Shown here piece after piece: positions 11,963 through 17,189 of a DNA stretch of 64,000 nt. The translations under genes were made by a program, and so were the position numbers. Numbering within the stretch: position 1 is the first letter of the stretch; each line of letters begins with the position of its first letter. This stretch comes from Halobacteriovorax sp. HLS (GTDB lineage Bacteria > Bdellovibrionota > Bacteriovoracia > Bacteriovoracales > Bacteriovoracaceae). The stretch lies in assembly GCF_004006665.1 (NCBI RefSeq), contig NZ_QOCL01000002.1, positions 62,001 to 126,000 of the forward strand. Reading direction: 5' to 3'. The notes below the pieces were generated by a model. That model had not been told where the DNA came from, did not search any database, and saw nothing but the letters and a program-made list of their open reading frames with translations.

Positions 11963-13774
11963 TTATTCGAGAATTCTAGAAGAACTTAACTTTAATAGAG
12001 AAATCATCATAAATAGCACAGTAAGCAATGACGCAGAAGGTCCATTACCAGGAGGTCCAGAATTGATATCAACAATGGAGCCACAAGCGACAGGAAGAGC
12101 TGAATCGTCACTCTTTTTCTTAGTTGCTTTTAAATTATCACCATTACTAATCGTATTGGCCGTTACTGAATAAGTCTGAGCTCCATCCATACAAGAAGAG
12201 TTGTCTGTCAGTGTTCCAAAGTTCTTTTGGCTAACTTGCTTATAATCAACCCCTACTTTTTCAACTAGTCTTGTTGTTATGAAATAGAAATGCCTATCTT
12301 CATTAAAGCCTGATCTTGAAAGGGAAAATATTTCATAACTTAAAGGATGATTTTCATCCATTGAATGAACTTGATCAATATTGCTCGGAACAATTTTAAG
12401 ATTATAAATATTCTTGAGCTGAACAGTAGAAATAGGTAGGCGATGTGTAATGCTTAAATCATATTTGCCATCTGTATCAACAGGAAGGCTTGAAGCCAGA
12501 AATGGTTCATAAACAGGTGATAAGTAATCTTCATGATTAAGAATAGTAGTAACTCTTAATGGTGAGTAAAAAGGTTGAGTCGCAATTCGAACTTCTAAGT
12601 ATAGGTCTTTACCTGGAAAGTCTGCGTGTAAATCATAAAGACTTAAGTCTAAATTATAGTCATCATATAGATCATCAAAAACGAGCGCACCGTTAATACT
12701 CTTTGTATTAAAAAATCCAACATGCGAACTTCCAACATAAGTAGAGTTAGTATCTTTAGTTACAATTTGAGGAGTAAAAGTTTCTCCCTTAGAAATCATA
12801 TACTCCCTACTTACCTCCAGGCCGCACTTAATTGATACGTAACCCATATTTACCGAGCTTTGAGAATTATTCAAGCTTATTCCGTAAGGCTTACCTCTAT
12901 CATCTCCAAAGCATCTTTGAAAAAATCCACCTTTATATGAATTTCCATTGTCACAATAATTCTTTTTAACCACATTATAATATTGAGTTTTTAACCCTAC
13001 CTCATTTATAGGTTCCACATAAATAAAGTATGTATCATCAAGAGGTAGATTACTAAGTGTAAATGCACCATTATCATCGCTTACAGTAGAAGTAATGGCC
13101 TTTCCACTACTTTGACTAAAAGCTGTTACATGTGCTCCAAAAACACTCACTAATGAAGAGCCCCCTGCAGCGATCCCAGTGATATTACCTTCTGATGTTT
13201 CTCCATATAGCATCTTTAAACCACTTTTATCATCACTGTGTAAGGAGTATTGTCCTTTCTTCGTTTCAAAAAACATAGTGGCATCTCTAAGCTGACTATG
13301 ATCTAAACCTAGAGCATGACCAATTTCATGTGTCATCGCATTGCCGAGATAGTTTTTATTATATGCAGAGTTTGAAAATGAATAAGTACTACTAAGAGCG
13401 ATATCAGCTTCAACTATTTTACCAGTTACAGAGTCAGTATGAGTTGTTGTAACGGCTACTATAGAGCTATCACTAAAAAAGACATCATTACTCAATTGGT
13501 AAATGTCATTTCGTCCAGAAACTTCTCCATCATTAGATATAAGAAGATTAATTGAATTTGAAATTATTGAATTATATGAATTTACTGAACTAAAAACGAT
13601 ACTATCTACATCTGAGCTAGAGATACCTTGAACACTATTCGTTAGAAAGAAATTTATATTACTAGAACTATTCCATTTATTAAATTGTCCAGCATCACTT
13701 CTCATAACTAAATACGAATAGCTAGAAAAACAAATAAAATATGAAACGAGGATTAAGCTCCAAGACTTAAGCAT
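11963..13774 (-). CDS. secreted matrixin-type zinc metalloprotease with C-terminal membrane anchor
   Basis: The 603-residue protein has a signal peptide (about residues 1-20), then a matrixin domain with the zinc site THEIGHALGLDHS (about residue 150) followed by a Met-containing stretch (ATMFF). Residues about 205-250 look like a carboxypeptidase-regulatory/Cna-B beta-sandwich (VFGAHVTAFS / SDDNGAFTLSNLP). A long region without a recognised domain follows. The tail has a Gly/Pro linker, a hydrophobic helix and a few charged residues, like a C-terminal sorting or anchor signal. I start it at ATG 13774; a TTG one codon earlier (13777) abuts the stop of the upstream gene, and AGGAAA serves either. 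The two genes are probably translationally coupled. A FliA-type promoter drives the pair, so expression in motile cells is likely. The substrate is unknown; prey envelope is a guess. Confidence 0.85.
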   Translation of the reverse strand: MLKSWSLILVSYFICFSSYSYLVMRSDAGQFNKWNSSSNINFFLTNSVQGISSSDVDSIVFSSVNSYNSIISNSINLLISNDGEVSGRNDIYQLSNDVFFSDSSIVAVTTTHTDSVTGKIVEADIALSSTYSFSNSAYNKNYLGNAMTHEIGHALGLDHSQLRDATMFFETKKGQYSLHSDDKSGLKMLYGETSEGNITGIAAGGSSLVSVFGAHVTAFSQSSGKAITSTVSDDNGAFTLSNLPLDDTYFIYVEPINEVGLKTQYYNVVKKNYCDNGNSYKGGFFQRCFGDDRGKPYGISLNNSQSSVNMGYVSIKCGLEVSREYMISKGETFTPQIVTKDTNSTYVGSSHVGFFNTKSINGALVFDDLYDDYNLDLSLYDLHADFPGKDLYLEVRIATQPFYSPLRVTTILNHEDYLSPVYEPFLASSLPVDTDGKYDLSITHRLPISTVQLKNIYNLKIVPSNIDQVHSMDENHPLSYEIFSLSRSGFNEDRHFYFITTRLVEKVGVDYKQVSQKNFGTLTDNSSCMDGAQTYSVTANTISNGDNLKATKKKSDDSALPVACGSIVDINSGPPGNGPSASLLTVLFMMISLLKLSSSRILE

Positions 13775-13777
13775 CAA

Positions 13778-14503
13778 TTATTTCCTGTGCTTTCTCATTG
13801 AGAAAGCTGAATATGCACCCATAAATGCAAATAAAATTACTAACCAATATGGGTTAGACGCTTCTTCTTCTTTTTTATCTAGTTGTTCAGCGACAGTTCT
13901 CGAGTTACCAATACTAGCTGGTGCTCTACCTTCACTTTTAACTTTCTTTGTTGTATTTGACTTAAACACGAACAGATCAGATGATTTAGTTACGAGGCTT
14001 TCTCCCAACATCTTTTCTAGAGAATTATTTAGTGTTTTGCTTGAAATTTTTCCAAGTTTAGCATGTCCAGGAAACACTGCGGACTTATAATAAGTCTTAT
14101 CAAACTCTTTATAAATTTCATACTTCCCCATTCCAAGACCTTTAACAGAGTAGCCATAAGGTGTATTCTTAAGAATTAGTAGTGACTTTTCATCTTTAAA
14201 GAATTTCGGTGCTCCTGAAACTTTATAAACAAGTCCTTGCCATTCGCCTCCAGGATAAACCACTTTAAAATTATTCTTATTAACAATTTCACTTTGTTTT
14301 ATACCTGCGCTCTTAATTATTTTGAAGGTTGCTTCAGTTAAAATTCTTCCATCATTTATTTTTCTATACTCAAGACCTTTGAACTCACCTAGAACAACAC
14401 CGTCAGCTTCTTCTAATTGTTTATCCAAACTCAATGGAATAAAGGTTGTTGCCATTACATTGAATTGGAAATAGAAAACTGAAAGTAATAAAATTCGATT
14501 CAT
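13778..14503 (-). CDS. exported protein with C-terminal membrane anchor, partner of the matrixin gene
   Basis: I do not recognise a family. The 241 residues begin with a signal peptide (about 1-18). The mature domain contains LEEADGVVLGEFKGLEYR, FKVVYPGGEWQGLVYKVSG and SLLILKNTPYGYSVKGLG, a beta-rich pattern, then a charged linker rich in Ser/Lys/Glu. The C-terminus is one transmembrane helix (WLVILFAFMGAYSAFSM) followed by RKHRK. The helix plus basic tail is the layout of C-terminal protein-sorting signals. It lies directly upstream of the protease gene (3 bases or fewer) behind a perfect FliA-type promoter. It may assist, anchor or inhibit the protease; this is inference from pairing. Confidence 0.65.
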   Translation of the reverse strand: MNRILLLSVFYFQFNVMATTFIPLSLDKQLEEADGVVLGEFKGLEYRKINDGRILTEATFKIIKSAGIKQSEIVNKNNFKVVYPGGEWQGLVYKVSGAPKFFKDEKSLLILKNTPYGYSVKGLGMGKYEIYKEFDKTYYKSAVFPGHAKLGKISSKTLNNSLEKMLGESLVTKSSDLFVFKSNTTKKVKSEGRAPASIGNSRTVAEQLDKKEEEASNPYWLVILFAFMGAYSAFSMRKHRK

Positions 14504-14535
14504 AGATAGCCCTAAAATAATATGCCCTACTAATA

Positions 14536-14562
14536 TTATCGGCTATTTTTGTGAATTCTTTA
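14536..14562 (-). promoter_or_regulatory. FliA (sigma-28) promoter, perfect consensus, for the matrixin operon
   Basis: On the minus strand TAAA (14562-14559), a 15-base spacer and GCCGATAA (14543-14536) match the FliA consensus at all 12 positions. The first gene starts at 14503, leaving a leader of roughly 25 bases. FliA promoters normally drive late flagellar genes, and FliA-type motifs are reported for attack-phase genes of Bdellovibrio. This predicts expression of the protease pair in motile, hunting cells. Confidence 0.8.
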
Positions 14563-14603
14563 CTGAAATGATCGGTTAAATGAACATCCAACCCACTGAA
14601 ATC

Positions 14604-17189
14604 TTATTGAAATTCAATATTTCTGTCCGCAAAATTTGAGAAAACTACATTTTCATCAACTAAAATAATAGTATTTCCCTTATTTTTTAAGCTTTCTAAA
14701 AATTCACAGATCTTAAGAGTCTCTGTACTAGAAAGGCCAAAAGAGAGGTCCTCAAAAATAACGAGAGAGTTTTCAATACTAGATTGTAATTCTGACAATA
14801 GTTTCAACCTTTGTTTTTCCCCTCCAGAAAGAGAGCTCAAAGGTCTATCTAAGTTTAAGTAGTCTAAGTTCAGCAGTTTTAAGTAGTCCCAGATCCTTCT
14901 CCCTTTAGGAGTTAACTTTACACTTGGAAGAACTTCAGACAAAGGTTTGGTAAAAACCTCATTTATTGTGAAGTTTCCATCTGAAATTGTAGCGATAAAA
15001 GGCTTTAACTTCATTCCATTGCAGTCATCACATGACAATACGACATCTTCTAGAAACTGCATGTCGATATTATGAACACCCTTTCCTTCACAGCTCAGAC
15101 ACTTCCCCAAGTCAGAGTTAGGAGAAAAATGACCATCTTTAAGACCTAAATTTTTAGAAACGGCTAAAGAAGCATAGTATTTTCTAATGAAAGGAGTTAA
15201 ACCAATCATTGTACCTACAGTTGATCGCGAACTGTACCTGTTGAATTTTGAATTTAAAACTAGAACCTTATTAAAATTTACCAATCCTTTGGGTCTTGAA
15301 AATTGAACCTGCTGACTTGAAATTTTCTCCAATCCCAACACCTCAGAGACGATATTAGCAACAGCTTCAATATAATAATCTTTTTTAAGAGAATAGCTCT
15401 TTCCTCTAATTACATTTATACCTTCAATAGAAAGTGACAAATCTCTACTCTCTCCATTAAGCATAACTTTTGGCAATTTAAGCTCTTTGAGCTTGTCACC
15501 TGAAGGTGTAGGCATTTCTATTTTACTATTTCTAAATTTTCCCTGATAAACAATCTCTCCGCCAAGATGCCCGGCACCAGGACCCATGACAATAACTTCA
15601 TCACTATTTTTTTGCAAATATTCACTATGGTCTACAAGTAAAATTGTATTTAAATTCTTCTTCAGTTTCTTTAAATACTTCAACAGTACTTTTTGCTCAT
15701 CAAGATCAATTCCTAAACTTGCTTCATCTAGTACAAACAGTGAACCGGACCCTTGAAACGAAAGATACTTCACTAATAAAAGTTTTTGATAATCATTAAC
15801 TGATAGATATTTAACTTTTTTTAAAAGTTTAAGATGACCGAGACCTAAATCAACTGACACTTTCAAAATTTCAATTAATTGCTTAACTATTTTTTGAGAG
15901 TTTTTCCAGTTTAATAATTCAGCCCCTTCTTTTTCTAGGCGAACTAAAAAGTTCAACAGTTCCGAGAAAGTATATTCTAAAATGTCCTGAACACTTGTCC
16001 TTTGTTTAGTATTTATACAAAAAGATAGAAGTTCATTTTTAAGTCTTGTTCCATTGCAGCTTTGACAGAGAACCTCAGTCTTTAATGAACGAAGAAGAAT
16101 ACGAACATTCTTTTTATATCTTTTTGACTCTAAGTACTCATAGAGACTTTCAAGACCAACATATTGCCCTGAACCTTTTTCTAAAAAGTTCCATACTTTT
16201 GAAGGCAATTCACAAAAGGGTATAGTTATATCAAATCCAGATTTCTTAGCCTCCTTAAGCATTACTGGAAAGATATGCTCAAAACGAGAATAACTAAGAA
16301 AGTTAACCGCCCCTTCTTTTAGAGAAAGAGAAGTATTCTTTACTATTTTCTCTCTATCGATCTCAAGGTTCATTCCATGTCCAGAACAAACACTACAGGC
16401 ACCTAAAGGCGTAAAGGCCGAAAAGTTCTGAGGACTATCTATTTTTATACCAATAGACTCGTCACAAACAGGGCAAGACCTCTCTTTACTGATAACAAAG
16501 GAAGAAGTTACGCCCCTTAAAGGGATAAAAACCTTAAGAGACCCATTTATATTTTCTAAATTTAACTCTTTAAACTTCTTATCTAAACTCGATAACCTAG
16601 TACCTTTAATTCTAAATAGTTCCCAATACTCATCTTCATAATTAAAAGCTCTGACTTCGTCGCAGAATGATCGTGCAGGCAAGAAACTATCACCATAGAT
16701 CTTTTTAAAAGAAGTGCTCTCCATGAAAAAATGAACAGCTTCGTTCTCTAAGTCATGAGCTTCTAAAAAGTTTCTTATTTGGTTCAGTGCTATTTTTTCC
16801 ACAAATTTTTGCTTATGGGTTTTGCAATAACTATCACCGAGGCTAAAAATAAGCTTACTCAACTGATCGTTAACACCAACTAAATCAACGGCTGAAGGCC
16901 TTGAACCCACAACGGGATTAGTCTGCGCCAACCCCCACACAGGAAGAACAGGAAATATTTCATCAACATCAGCAGACTGTGGAATATCCCAAAAAAACTT
17001 AACATCCCCCGGAAAGGAGTTCATAAACCTTCTCTTAGACTCAGAAAGTAAAGTGTGAAATGCCAAGGAAGATTTTCCAGAACCAGACGGACCAGCAATA
17101 CATGTAATCGAATTAAGTGCTATAGCAAGATCTACATTCTTTAGATTATGCGTGCGAGCACCTTTAATGGAAATAAAGTTCTGAGTCAT
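14604..17189 (-). CDS. UvrA-like ABC ATPase with one degenerate ATP site
   Basis: The 861 residues have the UvrA layout: GARTHNLKN and Walker A GPSGSGKSS near residue 36, a zinc-finger pair (CPVCDE, CSVCSGHG), CQSCNGTRLKNE, then a second half with CLSCEGKG, CDDCNGMKLKP and signature SLSGGEKQRL near 786. It is shorter than normal UvrA (about 940). The first half keeps Walker A and B (FVLDEASLG) but has LSVNDYQKL where the signature should be. The second half keeps the signature but has VIRGKSYSLKK instead of a Walker A, and IFED where D-E is expected. One composite ATP site is intact and the other is broken. It is unlikely to be the main excinuclease subunit. It starts after the rpsI terminator, with GAGG before its ATG. 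Confidence 0.85.
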   Translation of the reverse strand: MTQNFISIKGARTHNLKNVDLAIALNSITCIAGPSGSGKSSLAFHTLLSESKRRFMNSFPGDVKFFWDIPQSADVDEIFPVLPVWGLAQTNPVVGSRPSAVDLVGVNDQLSKLIFSLGDSYCKTHKQKFVEKIALNQIRNFLEAHDLENEAVHFFMESTSFKKIYGDSFLPARSFCDEVRAFNYEDEYWELFRIKGTRLSSLDKKFKELNLENINGSLKVFIPLRGVTSSFVISKERSCPVCDESIGIKIDSPQNFSAFTPLGACSVCSGHGMNLEIDREKIVKNTSLSLKEGAVNFLSYSRFEHIFPVMLKEAKKSGFDITIPFCELPSKVWNFLEKGSGQYVGLESLYEYLESKRYKKNVRILLRSLKTEVLCQSCNGTRLKNELLSFCINTKQRTSVQDILEYTFSELLNFLVRLEKEGAELLNWKNSQKIVKQLIEILKVSVDLGLGHLKLLKKVKYLSVNDYQKLLLVKYLSFQGSGSLFVLDEASLGIDLDEQKVLLKYLKKLKKNLNTILLVDHSEYLQKNSDEVIVMGPGAGHLGGEIVYQGKFRNSKIEMPTPSGDKLKELKLPKVMLNGESRDLSLSIEGINVIRGKSYSLKKDYYIEAVANIVSEVLGLEKISSQQVQFSRPKGLVNFNKVLVLNSKFNRYSSRSTVGTMIGLTPFIRKYYASLAVSKNLGLKDGHFSPNSDLGKCLSCEGKGVHNIDMQFLEDVVLSCDDCNGMKLKPFIATISDGNFTINEVFTKPLSEVLPSVKLTPKGRRIWDYLKLLNLDYLNLDRPLSSLSGGEKQRLKLLSELQSSIENSLVIFEDLSFGLSSTETLKICEFLESLKNKGNTIILVDENVVFSNFADRNIEFQ

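Follow-up and report, generated by a model that had tools for sequence, protein, structure and literature searches.

A conserved FliA-type promoter overlapped by an inverted repeat precedes a putative inhibitor-matrixin gene pair in Halobacteriovorax sp. HLS

Introduction

The sigma factor FliA normally serves the late flagellar genes. In Bdellovibrio bacteriovorus it is essential and is described as a global regulator of the attack phase with proteases among its targets (PMC3627812, PMC5430801). The motif TTAAG-N16-CCGATA was found at 92 of 140 attack-phase promoters of this organism (PMC3627812), and its Tad operon was driven by FliA in a heterologous test (PMC5430801). In gene e of phage T4, the DNA that encodes the 5' strand of an inhibitory structure is known to contain late promoters (PMC3014915). 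Here we describe a locus of Halobacteriovorax sp. HLS, located in a stretch of 64,000 nucleotides of contig NZ_QOCL01000002.1 (hereafter the window), in which a FliA-type promoter overlapped by an inverted repeat stands before two genes on the minus strand: gene 1, which codes for a protein of 241 residues with a predicted TIMP/NTR fold, and gene 2, which codes for a secreted matrixin. The locus is compared with its relatives in the class Bacteriovoracia and in other families of the phylum, and with the described systems that it most resembles.

Results

The initial annotation of the window had placed a perfect FliA promoter about 33 bases before the first gene of an operon with a secreted matrixin, and this description is borne out by the present analysis. 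Positions 14562-14536 of the minus strand read TAAAGAATTCACAAAAATAGCCGATAA, with 0 mismatches to TAAA-N15-GCCGATAA over all 12 consensus bases, and 32 nt separate the end of the -10 element (14536) from the ATG of gene 1 (14503). The transcript would be expected to start about 7 nt downstream of the -10 element, near 14529, as predicted from the geometry of sigma-28 promoters. The pattern is unique within the window and gave 0 matches in 100 dinucleotide shuffles. The genome (3,844,771 bases in 16 contigs) holds 3 perfect sites, compared with 0 for a reversed control pattern, and all 3 lie 6-35 nt 5' of an open reading frame on the same strand, namely the window operon, a gene for a cyclic-nucleotide-type K+ channel and a sensor kinase gene. 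A FliA gene is also present in the genome (268.9 bits, with a family cut-off of 189.6).

The region upstream of gene 1 was scored for TNAAGT-N12..17-CCGANAA in 100 loci from about 40 genera, one of which contributes about 25 genomes, with significance levels taken from dinucleotide shuffles. In 96 of these loci a FliA-like site scored higher than the 95% level of the shuffles, and conservation of this extent argues against a chance match; in 81 loci the site exceeded the 99% level, and the spacer between TNAAGT and CCGA.AA was 14 or 15 in every one of these 81. On the reverse strand and in the coding region, used as controls, the 99% level was exceeded in 3 and 0 of the 100 loci, respectively. 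Among 12 named loci, which are those of Halobacteriovorax marinus and of other Bacteriovoracaceae and Halobacteriovorax records, the promoter of gene 1 scored between 8.8 and 13.4, and the starts of the matrixin, AMIN and lon genes did not exceed 8.8, most of them lying near 4-5; one uvrA-like start scored 13.4.

The gene pair itself is kept as well. Of 129 genomes of the class, 110 carry a single copy of gene 1, the matrixin gene follows it directly in 92 of the 100 loci, and the order uvrA-like gene, gene 1, matrixin, AMIN, lon is preserved in the 12 named loci, except that the uvrA-like gene was not found in 3 of them. In the window the stop of gene 1 and the start of gene 2 nearly touch (TAATTGATG). 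When 112 genomes from other families of the phylum were sampled, 36 proved to have a distant homologue of gene 1, and inspection of 20 such loci revealed a frame with the matrixin-type motif HExxHxxGxxH on the same strand in 14, directly downstream in 13. The FliA-type site is mostly absent there, with scores of 6.2 or lower at 18 of the 20 loci. Since the pair is kept outside the class where the site mostly is not, the pair is the older element and the FliA-type control appears to be specific to the class.

A recurring box, CCYGATAAAATnAG, was observed directly 5' of the -35 element in the window (14563-14577, AACCGATCATTTCAG) and in a group of relatives (loci L051-L073). It resembles a second -10 element and may represent a tandem promoter or an activator site; a box CCYGATAAAATNAG 5' of the -35 element was likewise noted by eye, and a tandem promoter was considered for it.

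In many relatives the sequence from the promoter spacer to the -10 element is complementary to the end of the leader, immediately ahead of the start codon, as for instance in CTCCGGTATGTCC-(13 nt)-GGACATACCGGAG of locus L145; the longest stems are those of L145 and L154. The minimum free energy of the leader gave a mean z of -2.15, compared with -0.23 for an upstream control and -0.41 for a coding control. When arms were swapped between loci the mean energy rose from -10.8 kcal/mol for native arms to -6.9 kcal/mol, and the native sum was reached in 0 of 5000 permutations (z -13.5). In 18 loci that align without gaps, 76% of the cells pair, against 66% after shuffling, with a covariation score of 0.358 against 0.195 (0/500), and sliding of the partner arm in these loci lowered all measures except one count. 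The cost of opening the Shine-Dalgarno sequence rises from 4.0 kcal/mol in the RNA started at the FliA promoter to 7.6 kcal/mol in RNA with both arms, and is 5.5 kcal/mol when the 5' part is shuffled. With blind geometry, occlusion of the Shine-Dalgarno sequence at p<=0.05 was obtained for 41% of gene-1 starts, compared with 10% of matrixin starts, 12% of amin, lon and uvrA starts and 10% of flagellin starts. The same effect was seen at three other FliA-like sites of the genome itself, L019 (p 0.000) and L008 and L027 (both p 0.017). The promoter at L019 (C3:519709) stands out for the strength of its inverted repeat, with a z of -5.45.

The initial annotation spoke of a protease pair, which is incorrect: only gene 2 codes for a (secreted) matrixin, gene 1 matches no protease in any library, and the two are better described as a probable inhibitor-protease pair. 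Gene 2 scores 42.7 bits against PF00413 (cut-off 24), and H150, E151, H154, G157, H160 and M168 are invariant in the alignment. Over residues 22-195 the matrixin model can be superposed on MMP-8, beginning at the N-terminus of the mature MMP-8 (79/80), with Z 16.2 over 153 residues, and the match to karilysin has Z 15.7. The catalytic domain begins immediately behind the signal peptide, at residue 22, and lacks the prodomain and cysteine switch of most animal MMPs; the superposition on mature MMPs from this residue leaves no room for a prodomain, so that an inhibitor partner would be a sensible form of control. The C-terminus of the matrixin (window 12074-12088) carries an invariant Cys-Gly (ACGS/T[IV]), a stretch rich in Gly and Pro and a hydrophobic helix, possibly a sorting or lipidation signal.

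Gene 1 has no sequence match in Pfam, NCBIfam or the PDB. An AlphaFold2 model built with 13 homologues has a pLDDT (predicted local distance difference test) of 78 overall and about 90 in the core of the domain. The best Foldseek rows for this model were agrin NtA and TIMP-1 (E about 0.01, probability 1.00), and VIA-align gave Z 10.7 for agrin NtA (2.9 A over 115 residues), 10.0 for TIMP-3 and 9.5 for TIMP-1; the rows listed are all NTR domains down to Z 6.6, and the first other protein is an OB-fold protein at Z 6.5. Residue 20 of the model aligns with residue 2 of TIMP. TIMPs bind the catalytic zinc of their target with a free N-terminus and place residue 2 in its S1' pocket, and we propose from the model that the N-terminus of gene 1 may insert likewise into the active site of the matrixin. 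The region is well conserved in the alignment of 100 sequences, with A, S or G at position 18 in 98, one of T, V, S, I and M at position 20 in 92, and F or Y at position 21 in 90. In the window gene 1 lacks a cysteine where cleavage is predicted and hence a lipoprotein signal; it has a C-terminal membrane helix instead.

The linker before this helix contains R-x-P-A-S, in which PAS followed by a hydrophobic residue presumably resembles an MMP cleavage site. Among the stretches of the genome that were scanned, the motif was found beyond gene 1 only in an OmpA-like protein (L005) and in the membrane protein at L019, both behind FliA-like sites, and it is possible that the three proteins share it as a processing motif.

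Near-perfect FliA sites elsewhere in the genome stand before genes named by inspection as PilB-like ATPase, HD-GYP, ClpP, response-regulator, kinase and channel genes, and the sites L002, L006, L008, L024, L027, L016 and L018 may be regarded as a candidate attack-phase regulon of the species. The number of sites with at most one mismatch (56, compared with 10 for the reversed pattern) was not used as proof, because the count is unclean, 31 of the 56 lying in open reading frames or without a near start. A search for the perfect consensus at the flagellin genes of the genome found none, and weaker sites were found instead. The eight flagellin genes (L031-L038) carry weak or degenerate sites of the type TAAAG-N15-NCGATAA, an unexpected finding in what are usually the main targets of FliA. 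Of the 37 best flagellin sites, 22 lie 69-104 nt upstream by our own count.

No terminator was found by a terminator scan of the gap of about 100 nt between the uvrA-like gene and gene 1. A strong intrinsic terminator with a 10-bp stem is present at 17229-17205, in the gap between rpsI and the uvrA-like gene. The positions of all features are given in Table 1.

Table 1. Positions of the features of the locus in the window
Feature	Position	Strand	Remarks
UvrA-like gene	14604..17189	minus	directly 5' of gene 1; presumed source of read-through
-35 element TAAA (TAAAGA)	14559..14562	minus	TAAAGT, TTAAGT or TCAAGT in relatives
5' arm of repeat, ATAGCC	14541..14546	minus	end of promoter spacer and start of -10; would be absent from RNA started at this promoter
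-10 element GCCGATAA	14536..14543	minus	consensus match
3' arm of repeat, GGCTAT	14506..14511	minus	overlaps presumed Shine-Dalgarno sequence (AGGG, 14513-14510), just 5' of ATG
Gene 1, 241 residues	13778..14503	minus	signal peptide, NTR/TIMP-fold domain 20-167, disordered RAPAS linker, C-terminal transmembrane helix, basic tail
TTFIP, residues 19-23	14435..14449	minus	predicted mature N-terminus (VMA/TTFIP), signal cleavage predicted after Ala18
RAPAS, residues 193-197	13913..13927	minus	disordered linker before membrane helix; family keeps R and A almost without exception
Gene 2, secreted matrixin, 604 residues	11963..13777	minus	MMP-like catalytic domain 22-195, no prodomain, beta-rich domains, C-terminal hydrophobic helix
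Zinc-binding motif HEIGHALGLDH, residues 150-160	13298..13330	minus	from alignment

Discussion

The best explanation of the locus as a whole, which we regard as reasonably probable, is that of a FliA operon for an inhibitor-protease pair, with a repeat that hides the Shine-Dalgarno sequence. The FliA (sigma-28) promoter would transcribe the genes of a membrane-anchored, inhibitor-like protein with TIMP/NTR fold and of a secreted MMP-like matrixin that lacks a prodomain. By this co-expression the enzyme could be active from the start and yet restrained at the envelope of the cell's own, and FliA activity would confine the pair to the motile attack phase, in analogy to B. bacteriovorus. A protease that is made together with its probable inhibitor fits better with a controlled or stored protease than with a plain weapon.

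The structural comparison suggests with fair probability that the product of gene 1 binds the matrixin or inhibits it, and inhibition is the role that we infer. What speaks against it is that the defining cysteines of TIMPs (Cys1 and the disulfides) are missing from gene 1, which also has no sequence match to TIMPs; in the absence of these cysteines gene 1 is not a TIMP by membership. A rather unlikely alternative is that its product is a substrate, an anchor or a folding partner of the matrixin, which is for example clipped in the RxPAS linker and shed. The conserved R-x-P-A-S in a disordered juxtamembrane linker would suit such a role, and in Listeria the metzincin Mtz cleaves the TIMP-like lipoprotein Tim (PMC8235301), whereas an inhibitor agrees with the NTR fold, with the TIMP-like start of the mature protein and with an enzyme that has no prodomain. 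The two roles may also coexist.

For the repeat, our reading is that it acts in RNA. An RNA started at the FliA promoter would begin in the loop, form no stem and be free for translation, while read-through RNA from the uvrA-like gene would carry both arms, so that the Shine-Dalgarno sequence is hidden and the pair stays untranslated without FliA. The chances that read-through RNA hides the Shine-Dalgarno sequence in this way appear evenly balanced for the family, and for the exact sequence of the window they appear somewhat poorer. Still tentative, and held at a little under even chances, is the generalisation that the FliA promoter of Bacteriovoracia serves at the same time as one arm, the 5' one, of a hairpin by which the Shine-Dalgarno sequence is hidden, so that only RNA made with the attack-phase sigma factor could be translated and the pair would be silent outside the attack phase, an arrangement that would recur in the FliA regulon at L019, L027 and L008.

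Several observations weigh against this reading. The hairpin of the window is marginal when taken alone, with a z of -1.05 to -1.57 and an opening cost of the Shine-Dalgarno sequence that rises from 2.3 to 7.4 kcal/mol (p 0.05 or 0.067). The terminator after rpsI leaves the uvrA-like gene as the sole possible source of read-through, the ribosomal-protein genes being shut off. Finally, the stem holds 19 G-T and 24 A-C cells, in each case 0.78 of expectation; as G-T is thus not preferred, the repeat could act in DNA.

Such a role in DNA, as a dyad operator over the -10 element and the start site at which a repressor or activator adds control to the FliA promoter, seems improbable to us. Beside the lack of preference for G-T, it would account for an inner stem that is centred on the start region with a fixed spacing of 13 nt, and for the conservation of GA..AAG..GTA in the loop. 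The arms however covary, with up to four pair types (five with G-T) at one position, all of which pair, and their length varies up to 14 bp, which would require a regulator to change its specificity repeatedly. Moreover, the pairing extends into the Shine-Dalgarno sequence and accompanies its occlusion. It is very unlikely that the repeat is instead a terminator or a 3'-end protector of the upstream uvrA-like mRNA; it does lie 60-100 nt past the uvrA stop in the loci that have this gene, and T-runs follow the 3' arm in a few loci (L154), but most loci, including the window, have no U-tract, and the terminator scan is negative there.

Returning to the promoter, the site at 14562-14536 is very probably a FliA promoter, as initially annotated, judging from the presence of a FliA gene and from its conservation in 96 of 100 loci, a count which exaggerates the independence of loci that are kin by descent. 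FliA would be expected to bind there, and by the analogy with Bdellovibrio expression of the operon would be specific for the attack phase. A point against this is that the flagellin genes carry weak forms of the motif, only 10 of 37 best sites exceeding the 95% level, so that the assignment to FliA rests partly on the Bdellovibrio analogy. That the housekeeping sigma factor reads the promoter and its likeness to FliA sites is incidental is most improbable, since, even if the -10 element holds GATAAT, which resembles a sigma-70 -10, and most flagellin genes here have no strong FliA site, a simple sigma-70 scan gave no site at the promoter, the -35 element of the initial annotation is kept at exact spacing, and the relatives keep TNAAGT-N14/15-CCGA with CCGACAA, CCGATCA or CCGACTA, none of which is a -10 sequence of the sigma-70 type.

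A FliA-type site that became fixed family-wide before the pair would be a concrete target of the attack-phase sigma factor of a predator. If the reading of the hairpin is true, a cellular developmental programme uses a trick of phage T4, whereby an mRNA is translatable or not according to the promoter from which it was started, and the promoter-embedded hairpin would be a new addition to the attack-phase control by FliA. Beyond phage T4 we found no bacterial promoter-embedded hairpins of this kind in the open-access literature, which is weak evidence of novelty. The proteins, for their part, would make a bacterial protease-inhibitor pair on the same two folds as the animal MMPs and TIMPs, spread over a large part of a phylum that comprises predators and their relatives.

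Comparison with known systems

The locus shares with the attack-phase regulon of Bdellovibrio a near-identical promoter (TTAAG-N16-CCGATA in that organism) and a use of FliA far beyond flagella that includes proteases. It differs in that it belongs to another class and in that neither this operon nor its family-wide promoter is described for Bdellovibrio; the control proposed here is predicted from sequence. The leaders of gene e, soc, 49 and I-TevI of phage T4 (PMC3014915) resemble the locus in having a late promoter within the DNA that encodes the 5' arm of a hairpin, which in longer early transcripts conceals the Shine-Dalgarno sequence. The layout of the gene e type, with the promoter in the 5' arm, the Shine-Dalgarno sequence in the 3' arm and a conserved hairpin, is found over the family and is marginal in the window. 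In contrast to T4, the arrangement read here from DNA sequences is chromosomal, belongs to a developmental sigma factor and is conserved across bacterial genera.

As to the proteins, the potempin-KLIKK pairs of Tannerella, including PotA-karilysin (PMC7296668; PDB 8B2Q), likewise have an inhibitor gene directly 5' of a gene for a secreted MMP-like protease. The potempins are lipoproteins, while gene 1 has a signal peptide and a C-terminal membrane helix, stands under putative FliA control and has no sequence match. Mtz and Tim of Listeria (PMC8235301) also combine a secreted metzincin with a membrane-bound protein predicted to be TIMP-like, but with the reverse gene order, a lipoprotein anchor and a CI/Cro-type switch of phage origin. 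Animal TIMPs and NTR domains (TIMP-1, TIMP-3, agrin NtA) share with gene 1 the predicted NTR fold of OB type and a mature N-terminus x-T/S that aligns with TIMP residues 1-2, whereas gene 1 has no cysteines at positions 1 and 3 and no second TIMP domain, carries a membrane anchor and is only about 10-13% identical to them.
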